From: Parahoeflea alexandrii
GTDB taxonomy: Bacteria > Pseudomonadota > Alphaproteobacteria > Rhizobiales > Rhizobiaceae
Direction of reading: 5' to 3'
DNA: 64,000 nucleotides
Assembly: GCF_027214025.1 (NCBI RefSeq)
Contig: NZ_JAPWHB010000003.1
Location: forward strand, 124,001 to 188,000
The first letter of the stretch is position 1. Each line of letters opens with the position of its first letter. A model generated the notes under the pieces. That model was given only the letters and a program-made list of their open reading frames with translations. It was not told the DNA's origin and made no database searches. The position numbers and the translations under genes were made by a program. This document shows positions 35,332 to 40,157 of the stretch, in pieces.

Positions 35332-36723
35332 TCAGCGCACGGACAGGGCATCGAGAATGCGGACCCACGAGCGGATTCCCTTGGCAAAGGAAGTCAGGTC
35401 ATATTTCTCGTTGGGCGAATGGATCCGGTCATCGGTGAGGCCGTAACCGCACAGCATCGATTGCAGGCCAAGGATATTCTGGAAATCGCCGACGATGGGG
35501 ATGGAACCGCCCATGCCGATCATCACCGCGGGTTTCGGCCATTCATCGGTCAGGGCGGAGCGGGCCTTGGTCACCACCGGCGAATCAAACGGTAGCTGGA
35601 TGGCGGGCGAGCTGCCATGCGGAGCGTAGCTTGCGGTGCAATCGGCCGGCAGGCGGGCCTCGACATGGGCGCGGAACGCGGCCCGCACCTGGTCAGGGTC
35701 CTGCTTGCCGACGAGCCGGAAAGAGACCTTGGCGGACGCCTTGGCGGCGATCACGGTCTTGAAACCCTCGCCGGTGTATCCACCCCACATGCCGTTGACC
35801 TCGGCGGTGGGCCGCGCCCAGGTGAGTTCGAGCACCGAGCGGCCCTGTTCGCCGGAAGGAACCGACAGGCCGATTTCACCGAGGAAACTTTCCGATGTCC
35901 GGCCAAGGCTGTCCCAGCTTGCCAGCACCTGCGCCGGCGTCTCCTCGACACCGTCATAAAAGCCCTCAAGCGTTACCCGGCCGGTCTCGTCGTGCAGGTC
36001 GGCGAGGATCTTCGACAGGATGTGCAGCGGGTTGGCGGCCGCGCCGCCGAAAAGACCGGAATGGAGATCACGGTCGGCGGCGTGGATCGTCACCTCCTCG
36101 CCCACCAGACCGCGCAGCGCCACGGCGATCGCCGGGGTTTCGGGGTCCCACATGCCGGTGTCGCAGACGAGCGCGCACTCGGCCCTGAGCTCGTCGGCAT
36201 TGGCCTCGAGGAACGGCTTGAGCGAGGGGGAGCCGGATTCCTCCTCGCCCTCGAACAGAATGGTGATGCGGCACGGCAGCGTGCCGGATGCCGCCTTCCA
36301 GGCCCGGCAGGCCTCGACGAAGGTCATCAGCTGGCCCTTGTCGTCGGAGGAACCGCGGCCGGTGATGGCCTTGCGGCCCGGTGCGATCTCCTTGATGGCC
36401 GGCTCGAACGGCGGATCGGTCCACAGATCGAGCGGGTCGACCGGCTGCACGTCGTAATGACCGTAGAAGAGATAATGCGGCGCGTCCGGTGTGGCACCGG
36501 GATGATGGGCGACCACCATCGGATGGCCGGTGGTGTCGCGCAGGCTCGCATCGAAGCCGAGCGAATTCAGTTCGTCGACCAGCCACTGCCCGGCGCGGCG
36601 GCATTCCGGCGCATAGGCGGGATCGGTGGAGATCGACTGGATGCGCAGCAGCCCGAACAGGCGCTCGAGGCCGTCATCGAAATTGGCGTCGGCAGCGGAA
36701 AGGGCGGCGGTCAGGTCTGTCAT
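35332..36723 (-). CDS. M20-family dipeptidase (metallopeptidase)
   Basis: A 463-residue di-zinc peptidase. Metal-ligand motifs are FYGHYDVQPVDPLD (His and Asp), ITGRGSSDDKGQLM and FEGEEESGSPSL with the catalytic Glu pair. A dimerisation lid domain lies at about 200-370. The N-terminus MTDLTAALSAADANFDDGLERL begins at the ATG 36723, six bases after GGAG; the frame is open 48 codons further but without signal. Related rhizobial proteins are called dipeptidase or carnosinase-like. Substrate is open. It lies just downstream of a structured small-RNA-like region on the same strand. Confidence 0.9.
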   Translation of the reverse strand: MTDLTAALSAADANFDDGLERLFGLLRIQSISTDPAYAPECRRAGQWLVDELNSLGFDASLRDTTGHPMVVAHHPGATPDAPHYLFYGHYDVQPVDPLDLWTDPPFEPAIKEIAPGRKAITGRGSSDDKGQLMTFVEACRAWKAASGTLPCRITILFEGEEESGSPSLKPFLEANADELRAECALVCDTGMWDPETPAIAVALRGLVGEEVTIHAADRDLHSGLFGGAAANPLHILSKILADLHDETGRVTLEGFYDGVEETPAQVLASWDSLGRTSESFLGEIGLSVPSGEQGRSVLELTWARPTAEVNGMWGGYTGEGFKTVIAAKASAKVSFRLVGKQDPDQVRAAFRAHVEARLPADCTASYAPHGSSPAIQLPFDSPVVTKARSALTDEWPKPAVMIGMGGSIPIVGDFQNILGLQSMLCGYGLTDDRIHSPNEKYDLTSFAKGIRSWVRILDALSVR

Positions 36724-36776
36724 GGAATGCTCCGGAAGGGAATCAGAAGCAGAGAGACTAACGCCGGGACAAGGCA

Positions 36777-36817
36777 AAAGAAAAGCCGCCATGGCCGGAG
36801 GGGAAGGCCATGGCGGC
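36777..36817 (-). terminator. Rho-independent terminator of the polA-upstream small RNA
   Basis: Minus strand: the perfect 12-bp stem GCCGCCATGGCC/GGCCATGGCGGC (36817-36806 and 36796-36785), loop of nine bases reading TTCCCCTCC, then TTTTCTTTT. The plus strand has no T-run, which orients the transcript. Confidence 0.75.
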
Positions 36818-36928
36818 GTATTGTCAGGACAAGGGCCTATAAGGGGGGCGGGGCGGCCCTTGTCCATTGTCTGGAGGCGGCGGGGGACGAGCCGTGATTT
36901 CCAGACATCGGCTTATTCGTTCGCCGGT
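36777..36928 (-). ncRNA. Probable small RNA, alpha-r7 (Smr7C)-like, upstream of polA
   Basis: In the gap between polA and the dipeptidase, the minus strand carries three successive hairpins: TGTCTGG/CCAGACA (36907-36868), an 11-bp perfect stem GGACAAGGGCC/GGCCCTTGTCC (36865-36827) and the terminator stem (36817-36785) with a T-rich tail. A weak promoter (TTGAAA, 17 bases, CAAATG) ends at 36935, giving an RNA of roughly 150 nt. I recall the rhizobial alpha-r7 small RNA family as 134-159 nt and lying beside polA, which matches length and place; this is memory, not a search. Alternatively it is an attenuated leader of the dipeptidase gene. Confidence 0.62.
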
Positions 36929-36934
36929 GATTGA

Positions 36935-36963
36935 CATTTGGTCCGGTGAATGTGGCTTTTCAA
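36935..36963 (-). promoter_or_regulatory. Candidate promoter of the small RNA
   Basis: Minus strand TTGAAA (36963-36958), spacer of 17 bases, CAAATG (36940-36935). The -10 element is a weak match. An inverted repeat TTACA-GTTT-TGTAA (36975-36988) lies just upstream and could be a regulator site. Confidence 0.35.
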
Positions 36964-37208
36964 GGACACGAACATTACAGTTTTGTAACGAACGTGTGAT
37001 CGTGACTGCTCCGGCCATAGGGGCAACGGTTTCGGAAAACGCAAGATTACACCGCCAGTATCAAAGGTTGGGGTCACCGGCTGGTTCTCAGATTATCCCG
37101 ATCCTTCAAGGCGATTTCCCGGGGCGGGCCGGCCGTTGATCGAAATTAAGCGGCACAGCGTGGCAAACTGCATGGACGTCGGGACAGGCCCGCGCTAATC
37201 CTTTCGCC

Positions 37209-40157
37209 ATGAAAAAAGGTGATCATCTCTTCCTCGTCGACGGCTCCGGATACATTTTCCGGGCATATCACGCTCTGCCCCCGCTGACGCGCAAGTCCGA
37301 CGGCCTGCCGGTCGGCGCGGTGTCGGGTTTCTGCAACATGCTGTGGAAGCTGGTGTCGGAGGCGCGCGACACGTCCGTCGGGGTGACGCCGACGCATTTC
37401 GCGGTGATTTTCGACTATTCCTCGAAAACCTTCCGCAACGAGCTCTATCCCGAATACAAGGCCAACCGCTCGGCGCCGCCGGAAGACCTGGTGCCGCAGT
37501 TCGCCGTCATCCGCGAGGCGACGCGGGCCTTCGACCTGCCCTGCATCGAGATGGAGGGGTTCGAAGCCGACGACCTGATCGCCACCTATGCGCGGCTGGC
37601 GCGGGAAGCCGGCGCCGACGTCACGGTGATCTCGTCGGACAAGGACCTGATGCAGCTCGTCGGGCCGCAGGTGTCGATGTATGATTCGATGAAGGACCGG
37701 CAGATCGGCGTGCCGGAGGTGATCGAAAAATGGGGCGTTCCGCCCGAGAAGATGATCGACCTGCAGGCGCTGACCGGCGATTCGGTGGACAATGTGCCGG
37801 GCATTCCCGGGATCGGGCCCAAGACCGCGGCCCAGCTGATCGAGGAATTCGGCGATCTCGACACGCTGCTGGAGCGGGCCTCCGAGATCAAGCAGAACAA
37901 GCGGCGCGAAAACATCATCGAGTTTGCCGACAAGGCGCGGATTTCGCGCCAGCTGGTTCGCCTGAAGGATGACGTCGAGGTCAAGGAAAAGCTCGATGAG
38001 CTGGTGCTCAATCCGCTCGACGGACCGAAGCTCGTCGCTTTCCTCAAGGGGATGGAATTTACCTCGCTCACCCGGCGCGTGGCCGATGCCACGGAAACCG
38101 ATGCCAGCGCGGTGGATGCGGCGGAAGTGGCCGTTGACGCCGCCGCCGACATGCGTGGCCCCGATCTCGATCCCGGTCAGGCGGAAAACGCGTCGTCCTC
38201 GACCGCGGGAGCAGCAAAGGGCGATGACACACCGCAAGGCCTGGCCAAGAGGCGCGCGGAAGCCGCCGGTTCGGCAAAGATCGACACCACGGCCTATGAA
38301 ACCTTGCAAACCATCGATCAGCTCAAGACCTGGTGCGCTATGGCGCGCGAGCGCGGCCTTGTCGCTTTCGATACAGAAACCACCTCGCTCGATGCGATGC
38401 AGGCCGAACTGGTCGGCTTCTCGCTGGCGCTGCCGGAAACCGCGCCCGACACCGGTGACCTCAAGGTCCGGGCCTGCTACGTGCCGCTCATGCATTCCAA
38501 CGGCGCCGGCGACTTGCTCGGCGGCGGCGGCGCGCAGGACGGCCAGATGCCGATGCGCGAGGCGCTGGATGAACTCAAGGCGCTGCTCGAGGACCCGGCC
38601 GTCCTCAAGATCGGGCAGAACCTGAAATACGACATGCTGGTGATGGCGCGGCACGGCATCTCGATCGAAAGCTTCGACGACACGATGCTGCTTTCCTACG
38701 TGCTCGAGGCCGGCGTCGGCGGACACGGCATGGATTCGCTGTCGGATCGCTGGCTCGGTCACACGACGATCGCCTACAAGGACGTGACCGGTTCGGGCAA
38801 GAACGCGATTCCGTTCGCCGAAGTGCAGATCGACAAGGCGACGGCCTACGCGGCCGAGGACGCCGAGGTGACGCTCAGGCTCTGGCACGTGCTCAAGCCG
38901 CGGCTCGTCTCGGACGGGTTGGCATCGGTCTACGAAAGGCTCGAGCGGCCGCTGGCGCCGGTGCTGATGCGGATGGAGCAACACGGAATCCGCGTCGACC
39001 GGCAGATCCTGTCGCGGCTGTCGGGCGAACTGGCGCAGGGCGCGGCGGCGCTGGAAGCGGAAATCCAGGAACTGGCCGGCGAAAACTTCAATGTCGGATC
39101 GCCCAAGCAGCTCGGCGAGATCCTGTTTGACAAGATGAGCCTGCCGGGCGGCACGAAAACCAAGACCGGGCAATGGTCGACCACGGCGCAGGCGCTCGAG
39201 GACCTCGCCGCCGCGGGACACGAACTGCCGCGCAAGATCGTCGATTGGCGGCAGCTGACCAAACTCAAGTCGACCTACACCGACGCATTGCCCGGGTTCA
39301 TCAACCCCGAGACAAAACGGGTGCATACCTCGTTCGCGATGGCGGCGACCACCACTGGGCGGTTGTCCTCGTCGGACCCGAACATCCAGAACATTCCGGT
39401 GCGCACCGCTGAAGGCCGCAAGATCCGCACCGCCTTCATAGCAGAGCCGGGCAACGTGCTGATCTCGGCGGATTACAGCCAGATCGAGCTCAGAGTGCTG
39501 GCGCATGTTGCCCATATTCCGCAACTGACGCAGGCCTTTGCCGACGGCGTCGACATTCACGCCATGACCGCATCGGAAATGTTCGGGGTGCCGGTGGAAG
39601 GCATGCCGTCGGAGGTGCGCCGCCGCGCCAAGGCGATCAATTTCGGCATCATCTACGGCATCTCCGCCTTCGGCCTCGCCAACCAGCTCGGCATCGAACG
39701 CTCGGAAGCGGGCGAGTACATCAAGAAGTATTTCGAGCGTTTCCCGGGGATCAAGGACTACATGGAGGCCACCAAGGCCGAAGCCAAGGACCGCGGCTAC
39801 GTGACGACGATCTTCGGCCGCCGGGCGCATTATCCCGAGATCAAGTCGTCCAATCCGCAGGTCCGCGCCTTCAACGAACGCGCGGCCATCAACGCGCCGA
39901 TCCAGGGATCCGCCGCCGACGTCATCCGCCGCGCCATGGTGAGGATGGAGTCGGCACTGGAAAAGGCTGGCAAGAACGCGCGCATGCTGCTGCAGGTGCA
40001 TGACGAACTGATATTCGAGGCGGCCGAGGCCGATGCCGCATCGATCATCCCGGTGATCGTCGACGTCATGGAGAACGCCGCGATGCCGGCGGTCGACATG
40101 GCGGTGCCACTGAAGGTCGACGCGCGGGCGGCTCTGAACTGGGACGAGGCGCACTGA
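37209..40157 (+). CDS. polA: DNA polymerase I
   Basis: A 982-residue family A polymerase for Okazaki fragment maturation and repair. The 5'-3' nuclease domain spans about 1-290 (LVDGSGYIFRAYHAL, FEADDLIATYARLAREAGA). A linker follows with acidic and Ala-rich sequence. The 3'-5' exonuclease domain keeps its metal ligands (FDTETTS, Asp388 and Glu390), so proofreading is likely active. The polymerase has motif A DYSQIELRVLAH (Asp755), the O-helix RRRAKAINFGIIYG and motif C QVHDELIFE (Asp932). Longer than E. coli (928) through the linker. A long antisense frame overlaps it but is a composition artefact. Confidence 0.99.
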   Translation: MKKGDHLFLVDGSGYIFRAYHALPPLTRKSDGLPVGAVSGFCNMLWKLVSEARDTSVGVTPTHFAVIFDYSSKTFRNELYPEYKANRSAPPEDLVPQFAVIREATRAFDLPCIEMEGFEADDLIATYARLAREAGADVTVISSDKDLMQLVGPQVSMYDSMKDRQIGVPEVIEKWGVPPEKMIDLQALTGDSVDNVPGIPGIGPKTAAQLIEEFGDLDTLLERASEIKQNKRRENIIEFADKARISRQLVRLKDDVEVKEKLDELVLNPLDGPKLVAFLKGMEFTSLTRRVADATETDASAVDAAEVAVDAAADMRGPDLDPGQAENASSSTAGAAKGDDTPQGLAKRRAEAAGSAKIDTTAYETLQTIDQLKTWCAMARERGLVAFDTETTSLDAMQAELVGFSLALPETAPDTGDLKVRACYVPLMHSNGAGDLLGGGGAQDGQMPMREALDELKALLEDPAVLKIGQNLKYDMLVMARHGISIESFDDTMLLSYVLEAGVGGHGMDSLSDRWLGHTTIAYKDVTGSGKNAIPFAEVQIDKATAYAAEDAEVTLRLWHVLKPRLVSDGLASVYERLERPLAPVLMRMEQHGIRVDRQILSRLSGELAQGAAALEAEIQELAGENFNVGSPKQLGEILFDKMSLPGGTKTKTGQWSTTAQALEDLAAAGHELPRKIVDWRQLTKLKSTYTDALPGFINPETKRVHTSFAMAATTTGRLSSSDPNIQNIPVRTAEGRKIRTAFIAEPGNVLISADYSQIELRVLAHVAHIPQLTQAFADGVDIHAMTASEMFGVPVEGMPSEVRRRAKAINFGIIYGISAFGLANQLGIERSEAGEYIKKYFERFPGIKDYMEATKAEAKDRGYVTTIFGRRAHYPEIKSSNPQVRAFNERAAINAPIQGSAADVIRRAMVRMESALEKAGKNARMLLQVHDELIFEAAEADAASIIPVIVDVMENAAMPAVDMAVPLKVDARAALNWDEAH

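Follow-up and report, generated by a model that had tools for sequence, protein, structure and literature searches.

The 64,000-nucleotide stretch of DNA analyzed here (the window) carries three consecutive minus-strand hairpins in the gap between polA and a dipeptidase gene, and the locus raises the question of whether these hairpins form a small regulatory RNA and, if so, which RNA it is and how it might act. We conclude, with a probability of roughly 0.88 for the explanation as a whole, that Hoeflea encodes, in this three-hairpin RNA, its orthologue of ar7, a trans-acting small RNA; taken by itself, the identification of the RNA beside polA as ar7 is nearly certain. Papers are cited by PMC number. 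The features of the locus are:

35332..36723, minus strand: dipeptidase of the peptidase M20 family, downstream neighbor (PF01546, 112.9 bits)
36776..36784, minus strand: U-run UUUUCUUUU after terminator hairpin SL3
36780..36922, minus strand: match to ar7 (RF02342), covariance search
36781..36928, minus strand: predicted primary transcript of about 148 nt, start at 36927-36929, from projected SmrC7 RACE ends
36785..36817, minus strand: stem-loop 3 (SL3), terminator hairpin, with loop UUCCCCUCC at 36797-36805
36827..36865, minus strand: stem-loop 2 (SL2), from fold and covariation
36838..36854, minus strand: loop 2, GCCCCGCCCCCCUUAUA, replacing the family's CCCCUCUCCGGG
36869..36906, minus strand: stem-loop 1 (SL1), from fold and covariation
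36879..36888, minus strand: loop 1 motif GUCCCCCGCC, near-invariant in the family
36886, minus strand: putative processing point within loop 1, from which the 106-nt product would run to 36781
36936..36941, minus strand: -10 box CCAAAT, 17 bases past the -35 box (putative sigma assignment)
36959..36964, minus strand: -35 box CTTGAA (RpoH-like), conserved in relatives
36974..36989, minus strand: palindrome GTTACAAAACTGTAAT, probable binding site of a regulator
37209..40157, plus strand: polA, DNA polymerase I, upstream divergent neighbor (PF00476, 526.3 bits)

The ar7 covariance model (Rfam RF02342; SmrC7, sra03 or SmelC023 of Sinorhizobium meliloti) matches the minus strand at 36780-36922 with 86.3 bits against a cut-off of 60 (E 3.9e-15), covers model positions 1-145 of 145, and is the single Rfam family above its cut-off within the 64-kb window. 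This search bears out the earlier note, which had proposed the alpha-r7 family. The next-best ar7 match in the rest of this genome reaches 16 bits, leaving the match in the window as the sole copy above the cut-off. The family is already known from root-nodule bacteria, and Hoeflea ar7 is securely its expected orthologue. The anatomy that had been described also holds: three minus-strand stem-loops are followed by the T-run TTTTCTTTT at 36784-36776, which is present but interrupted by one C, and they lie in a gene-free gap at 36724-37208, taking the dipeptidase to start at 36723. Alignments with most M20 dipeptidase relatives begin at residue 1 or 4 when the protein is given this start (the exceptions are L010, L016, and L104), and the longer open reading frame at 35332-36867 is probably an over-extension. 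The suggestion that the sequence is divergent was partly right: the 18 Hoeflea members (the window's genome and 17 of the same genus, comprising G014, G004, and 15 others) score 67.5-101.6 bits versus up to 139 for the best in the family, and an altered loop 2 is their plainest divergence from the rest of the family. Short plus-strand open reading frames run antisense to ar7 in the window (36867-37139 and 36626-36934), and PMC3927594 mentions, for Brucellaceae, a small peptide predicted on the strand opposite ar7.

The minimum free energy of region 36770-37010 is -95 kcal/mol versus -60.6 (sd 4.62) in 200 dinucleotide shuffles (z -7.45), none of which is as stable; a long-range helix of this first fold needs bases above the RNA start and is thus probably absent from the RNA. 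Among relatives, 20 of the 31 stem pairs have at least one sequence changed on both sides and 98.8% of cells are paired, with SL3 paired in 100% of cells and changed on both sides in 8 of its 11 pairs. The covariation score of 0.403, which is favored by the derivation of the consensus structure from the same alignment, exceeds that of shuffled alignments (0.191, sd 0.010; 0 of 500 as high) and that of the structure slid along the alignment (0.054-0.116); further pair types do not clearly exceed shuffles (38 versus 35.5; 60 of 500 as high). This comparison of the polA gap across relatives, which the earlier note had proposed, indicates that all three stems of RF02342 are kept by compensatory change at the same position beside polA. 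The loops between these variable stems are near-fixed, a pattern that would be expected of a pairing RNA. Neither a terminator-like nor a sigma-70-like site emerged from a simple scan of 36500-37400, probably because the scan limited loops to 3-8 bases (SL3 has 9) and sought sigma-70 hexamers only.

Of 394 genomes sampled from the family, 352 have ar7 at E <= 0.001 (297 above the cut-off; 91 of 106 genera), and the 14 genomes above the cut-off among 297 sampled across the order all belong to it. Two weak hits from other families (30.8 and 35.1 bits) were rejected as ar7: L122 is just a loop-1-like stretch ahead of a terminator, and L123, from a genome of another family of the order, is a CCUCCUCCC-type RNA, with an array of at least five CCUCC segments, probably hairpin loops, on the reverse strand of L123 at 1476-1724. 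With a model built from 34 members, ar7 is found upstream of the gene in 75 of the 80 named polA loci (65.9-145 bits); some of these loci, including L029 and L030, come from genomes on which the model was built. The window's polA protein is 88-89% identical to those of two named Hoeflea and at most 76% identical to those of the other 78 loci. polA lies within 300 bases of ar7 in 64 of the 75 loci, and adjoins every SmrC7/SmelC023 family member but one according to PMC3927594.

The named polA loci without ar7 are L063, L068, L086, L095 (which has just 409 bases above polA), and L101; Rfam matches elsewhere in these genomes are above the cut-off for L068, L101, and L095 and below it for L063 and L086 (55.0 and 52.9 bits). 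The genomes of L095 and L063 each hold two ar7-like RNAs away from polA, L127 and L128 having both loops and L130 and L131 keeping loop 1 with the loop 2 motif lost; the genome of L086 has the ar7-like L129 plus a second match of 46.8 bits, and five g199 genomes among the matches listed have two ar7 matches each. A worn ar7-like RNA is divergent from polA in two genomes of 1.0-1.1 Mb from the same family (L028/L192:1501-1627 and L191; G023 and G501), with promoter letters and loops 2 and 3 recognizable and the loop 1 C-run and palindrome lost; since its scores are weak (27.1 bits with Rfam in G023; 17.6 and 23.3 bits with model R1), its designation as ar7-like rests on its position beside polA. 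G433 and G556, of the same genus, have no ar7 match. Separately, a three-hairpin RNA with CCUCCUCCC loops, probably of the SmelA075 type, occurs about 3 kb above polA on the opposite strand and scores 27-32 bits with the ar7 model (L104:797-923, L051:166-310, L070:712-844, L048:612-739, L039:521-676, L042:491-646, L066:480-622, and L106:643-776).

A text search found CTTGAA in 114 of 117 rows, in one of which (L131) it lies away from the promoter, and the -10 region is mostly C-initial (CCAAAT, ACAAAT, and similar); within this set, L029, L030, L124, and L092 duplicate L017, L014, L107, and L115. RpoH1 of S. meliloti prefers CTTGAA as its -35 box, whereas its -10 sequence, CCTATAT, differs from the CCAAAT of Hoeflea ar7 (PMC4843759). 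A review table gives both RpoD and RpoH1/2 for SmelC023 (PMC7143759), and many predicted RpoH promoters are considered likely to be false, with motifs resembling those of RpoD (PMC3616915).

When one mismatch is allowed, the palindrome GTTAC-N6-GTAAY lies above the -35 box in 134 of 141 distinct sequences, 108 of them matching exactly, versus 7 of 2,820 shuffled upstream stretches. Its distance to the -35 box is 9-10 bases in 79 of the 134 sequences, 19-21 in 48, and 11-18 in none, with seven outliers at 24, 40, 53, and 54 (ties were resolved towards a gap of 11); the two positions are one helical turn apart, and both occur within Hoeflea. The palindrome together with CTTGA occurs once per genome in 11 Hoeflea, always at ar7, and not at all in six genomes of other families, and the backward control pattern occurs seven times in 5 of 17 genomes. 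The strict palindrome alone has three sites in this genome, one of them matching in both directions, and a single site in G001, in each case fewer than its backward control (13 and 20, respectively). It accompanies ar7 even far from polA (e.g., 2,719 bases in L102); under a stricter text pattern, 51 of the 75 loci have the palindrome and 63 have loop 1.

As to the protein that may bind this site, a UlaR site, which may or may not be this palindrome, has been proposed in the SmrC7 promoter (PMC2780559), and a MarR-type gene lies on the far side of ar7 in its 14 Rhizobiaceae members in PMC3927594. The latter gene sits between ar7 and the dipeptidase gene in Ensifer (L107); the window lacks this trait, the dipeptidase adjoining ar7 instead, and the nearest relative of the Ensifer MarR in this genome is on another contig and 46% identical. 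Because the dipeptidase is the direct neighbor in 30 of 70 loci, a MarR gene on that side is not a defining trait of ar7. Identity to the best MarR match is 61-100% for Ensifer, Shinella, and Agrobacterium, falls to 40-51% for five Hoeflea and Aminobacter, and is 27-28% for M. ciceri, Brucella, and G024; given that the last three retain the palindrome, the MarR neighbor is unlikely to own it.

The ends of the RNA were projected from S. meliloti, where RACE placed the starts of SmrC7 at 201679 and 201681 and a processed end at 201723, and where Northern blots and RACE gave an independent RNA of 148-150 nt, accompanied by a 106-nt product and about 13-fold more abundant in nodules (PMC2780559); a duplet of about 140 and 90 nt was reported in strain 2011 (PMC2573895). 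The exact SmrC7 primer sequence has no match in the 394 family genomes, and we therefore registered the RACE ends on relatives, L164 and L165, both of which carry the published SmrC7 reverse primer site. In these near relatives, the positions 150 and 148 nt back from the last U are both G, with the published spacing of two bases, and the position 106 nt back falls at UGUC|CCCC inside loop 1; L178, which also has the primer site, has the same processing point, with C and A at the two starts. Projected onto the window, the starts are the seventh and ninth bases past the -10 box and the end, 36781, is the last U of the first U stretch, giving a length of about 148 nt versus the published 148-150 nt, in keeping with the approximately 150 nt first estimated. 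We infer from spacing that the ends and processing site of Hoeflea ar7 agree with those of SmrC7, and an independent small RNA is very probably made in Hoeflea. The strand of ar7 in PMC2573895, PMC2780559, and PMC2873474 agrees with the window and opposes that in PMC2245857, in which sra03 has the orientation of polA and its terminator is in what is here the 5' hairpin.

The two middle loops differ in conservation. All 20 Hoeflea rows (18 genomes) and 85 of the 97 others carry the loop 1 motif unchanged, the remaining 12 being off by 1-2 bases, and ten of its letters, GTCCCCCGCC, are invariant across the 34-sequence alignment. The loop 2 motif, CCCCUCUCCG[GA]G after loop 1, is present in 93 of the 97 non-Hoeflea rows, the others being L023 (whose loop 2, CCCCCTCTCCGGAC, is a near match outside the search pattern), L052, and the second copies L130 and L131. 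PMC3927594 describes highly conserved sequences in both middle loops of the SmrC7/SmelC023 family; in Hoeflea loop 1 is kept and the family loop 2 motif is found in 0 of 20 rows, all 18 genomes being rewritten. In its place, CCCCGCC follows loop 1 in 20 of 20 Hoeflea rows versus 1 of 97 others (L096, apparently in the terminator loop). Loop 1 itself ends in the same seven letters, so that loops 1 and 2 have CCCCGCC in common in Hoeflea. Some Hoeflea species retain CCCCCUCU after CCCCGCC, and the change may therefore be an insertion with loss of CCGG rather than a copying of loop 1.

We considered whether the hairpins could be only cis elements, such as a dipeptidase 5' leader or back-to-back terminators. 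The dipeptidase starts on the same strand at 36723, 57 bases below the predicted 3' end at 36781, and a relative of this gene, found in 70 of the 75 ar7 loci, is less than 200 bases away in 30 of them; however, it is 400-1,000 bases off in 34 and more than 2 kb off in six, the loops and promoter are kept in the >2 kb loci among the rows listed, and the S. meliloti RNA is an independent transcript (PMC2780559), so that we regard this explanation as very improbable. Still less credible, to the point of being negligible, is that the RNA is another rhizobial small RNA, since ar7 alone reached its Rfam cut-off in the window. EcpR1 and PmaR likewise have GC-rich or C-rich loops (PMC4414408, PMC6234868). 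EcpR1 resembles ar7 as a stress-induced, processed, trans-acting RNA with a fixed GC-rich binding loop, but it is SmelC291 at divK-pleD (PMC4414408) and differs in locus, loop sequence, and family; we rejected it because the window's neighbors and sequence differ, neither its loop motif UCCGCCGCAUCU nor the divK-pleD neighborhood being found at the window RNA. PmaR of Agrobacterium has a C-rich single-stranded loop that binds mRNAs, but it is spoon-like with one long stem, regulates mostly positively, and was rejected as restricted to Agrobacterium and one Rhizobium strain (PMC6234868). SmelA075-type RNAs share three hairpins with C-rich loops (PMC3927594), yet unlike ar7 they have the anti-Shine-Dalgarno CCUCCUCCC in each loop and several copies per genome; the loops of the window RNA are UCGUCCCCC, GCCCCGCCCCCCUUAUA, and UUCCCCUCC, and CCUCCUCCC is not in each of them. 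With SmrC7/sra03/SmelC023, judged on Sinorhizobium-type relatives, Hoeflea ar7 shares the hairpins, loop 1 motif, terminator, divergent polA position, length of about 148 nt, CTTGAA promoter, and palindrome, the differences being loop 2 (CCCCUCUCCGGG versus GCCCCGCCCCCCUUAUA) and the neighbor (MarR versus dipeptidase).

A different question, within the ar7 reading, is whether loop 1 is fixed as a processing or protein-binding site, with regulation through loops 2 and 3 only and ar7 being partly a protein or nuclease decoy. The projected start of the 106-nt form falls within loop 1 in L164, L165, and L178, and the second copies L130 and L131 keep loop 1 and lose loop 2, both as this proposal would have it; against it, the reduced genomes L191 and L192 have family-like loops 2 and 3 but not loop 1, and a C-run is, to our knowledge, not a usual RNase E site. 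We consider this proposal unlikely and prefer pairing by the loops, loop 1 included.

The targets of such pairing are approached here from two sides. The S. meliloti 15-nt loop has been predicted to pair with the smc03977-smc03976/zapA leader (PMC2245857). In 18 zapA-operon leaders (11 outside Hoeflea; taken from 30 loci around 6S RNA, with zapA seen in 18 and not in 12, and bounded in 17 of 18 by hand-picked protein starts), neither GGAGAGGGG nor its complement occurs within 200 bases (0 of 18 each), and this target is not kept. One leader, L256, comes within one mismatch of GGAGAGGGG and includes a perfect GGGGGAC, complementary to GUCCCCC of loop 1; it belongs to the gene before zapA in the genome of L037 (Allorhizobium undicola) and reads AGCCGGGGGACTGGATG, with GGGGGAC, absent from the other 17 leaders, immediately preceding the start codon. 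The pattern GGAGAGGGG-N2-9-ATG occurs at 40 places in eight genomes versus 10 for a backward control; loci were available for 30 of the 40, and among the 16 frames of at least 50 residues that were compared no target gene recurs save one 25%-identical permease pair. The earlier description of ar7 as a regulator of unknown targets thus still stands, these two partial tests for conserved targets having given none.

We posit that ar7 would be transcribed alone, away from polA, from the heat-shock-sigma-type promoter CTTGAA-N17-CCAAAT, with a protein on the GTTAC-N6-GTAAY palindrome aiding or repressing transcription, which would end at SL3 to yield an RNA some 148 nt long, a fraction of which would be cut inside loop 1 to give the 106-nt form. 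The C-rich single-stranded loops would pair with G-rich mRNA stretches at or near ribosome binding sites, and this pairing would lower mRNA translation or stability under stress. As no target was found, we offer this mechanism by analogy with EcpR1 and PmaR, in which loop pairing has been shown (PMC4414408, PMC6234868). On that analogy, action through loop pairing with mRNAs is a reasonable expectation, and we are cautious in speculating further that ar7 is mostly a repressor at ribosome binding sites, which we rate at somewhat below even odds. More doubtful is the proposal that loop 2 was rewritten at the root of the genus to give a doubled seed, CCCCGCC, and a new target set, with expression under a private helix-phased operator and a heat-shock promoter; if true, a two-seed regulator turned into a doubled-seed regulator at the root of Hoeflea.

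The altered loop 2, together with the predicted helix-phased operator and the predicted cutting inside loop 1, adds modestly to what is known of ar7: in the open-licence literature, as excerpted, we found no description of the Hoeflea loop 2 rewriting, of a two-position palindrome above CTTGAA, or of the published processing site lying inside loop 1. ar7 was reported in 2007, and these same excerpts yielded no confirmed target. The palindrome provides a handle for fishing out the regulator of ar7, and the change of loop 2 in one genus amounts to a natural experiment separating the targets of loop 1 from those of loop 2: a response to ar7 that is seen in Sinorhizobium and missing from Hoeflea should mark an mRNA as a target of loop 2, and responses common to both should mark the targets of loop 1.
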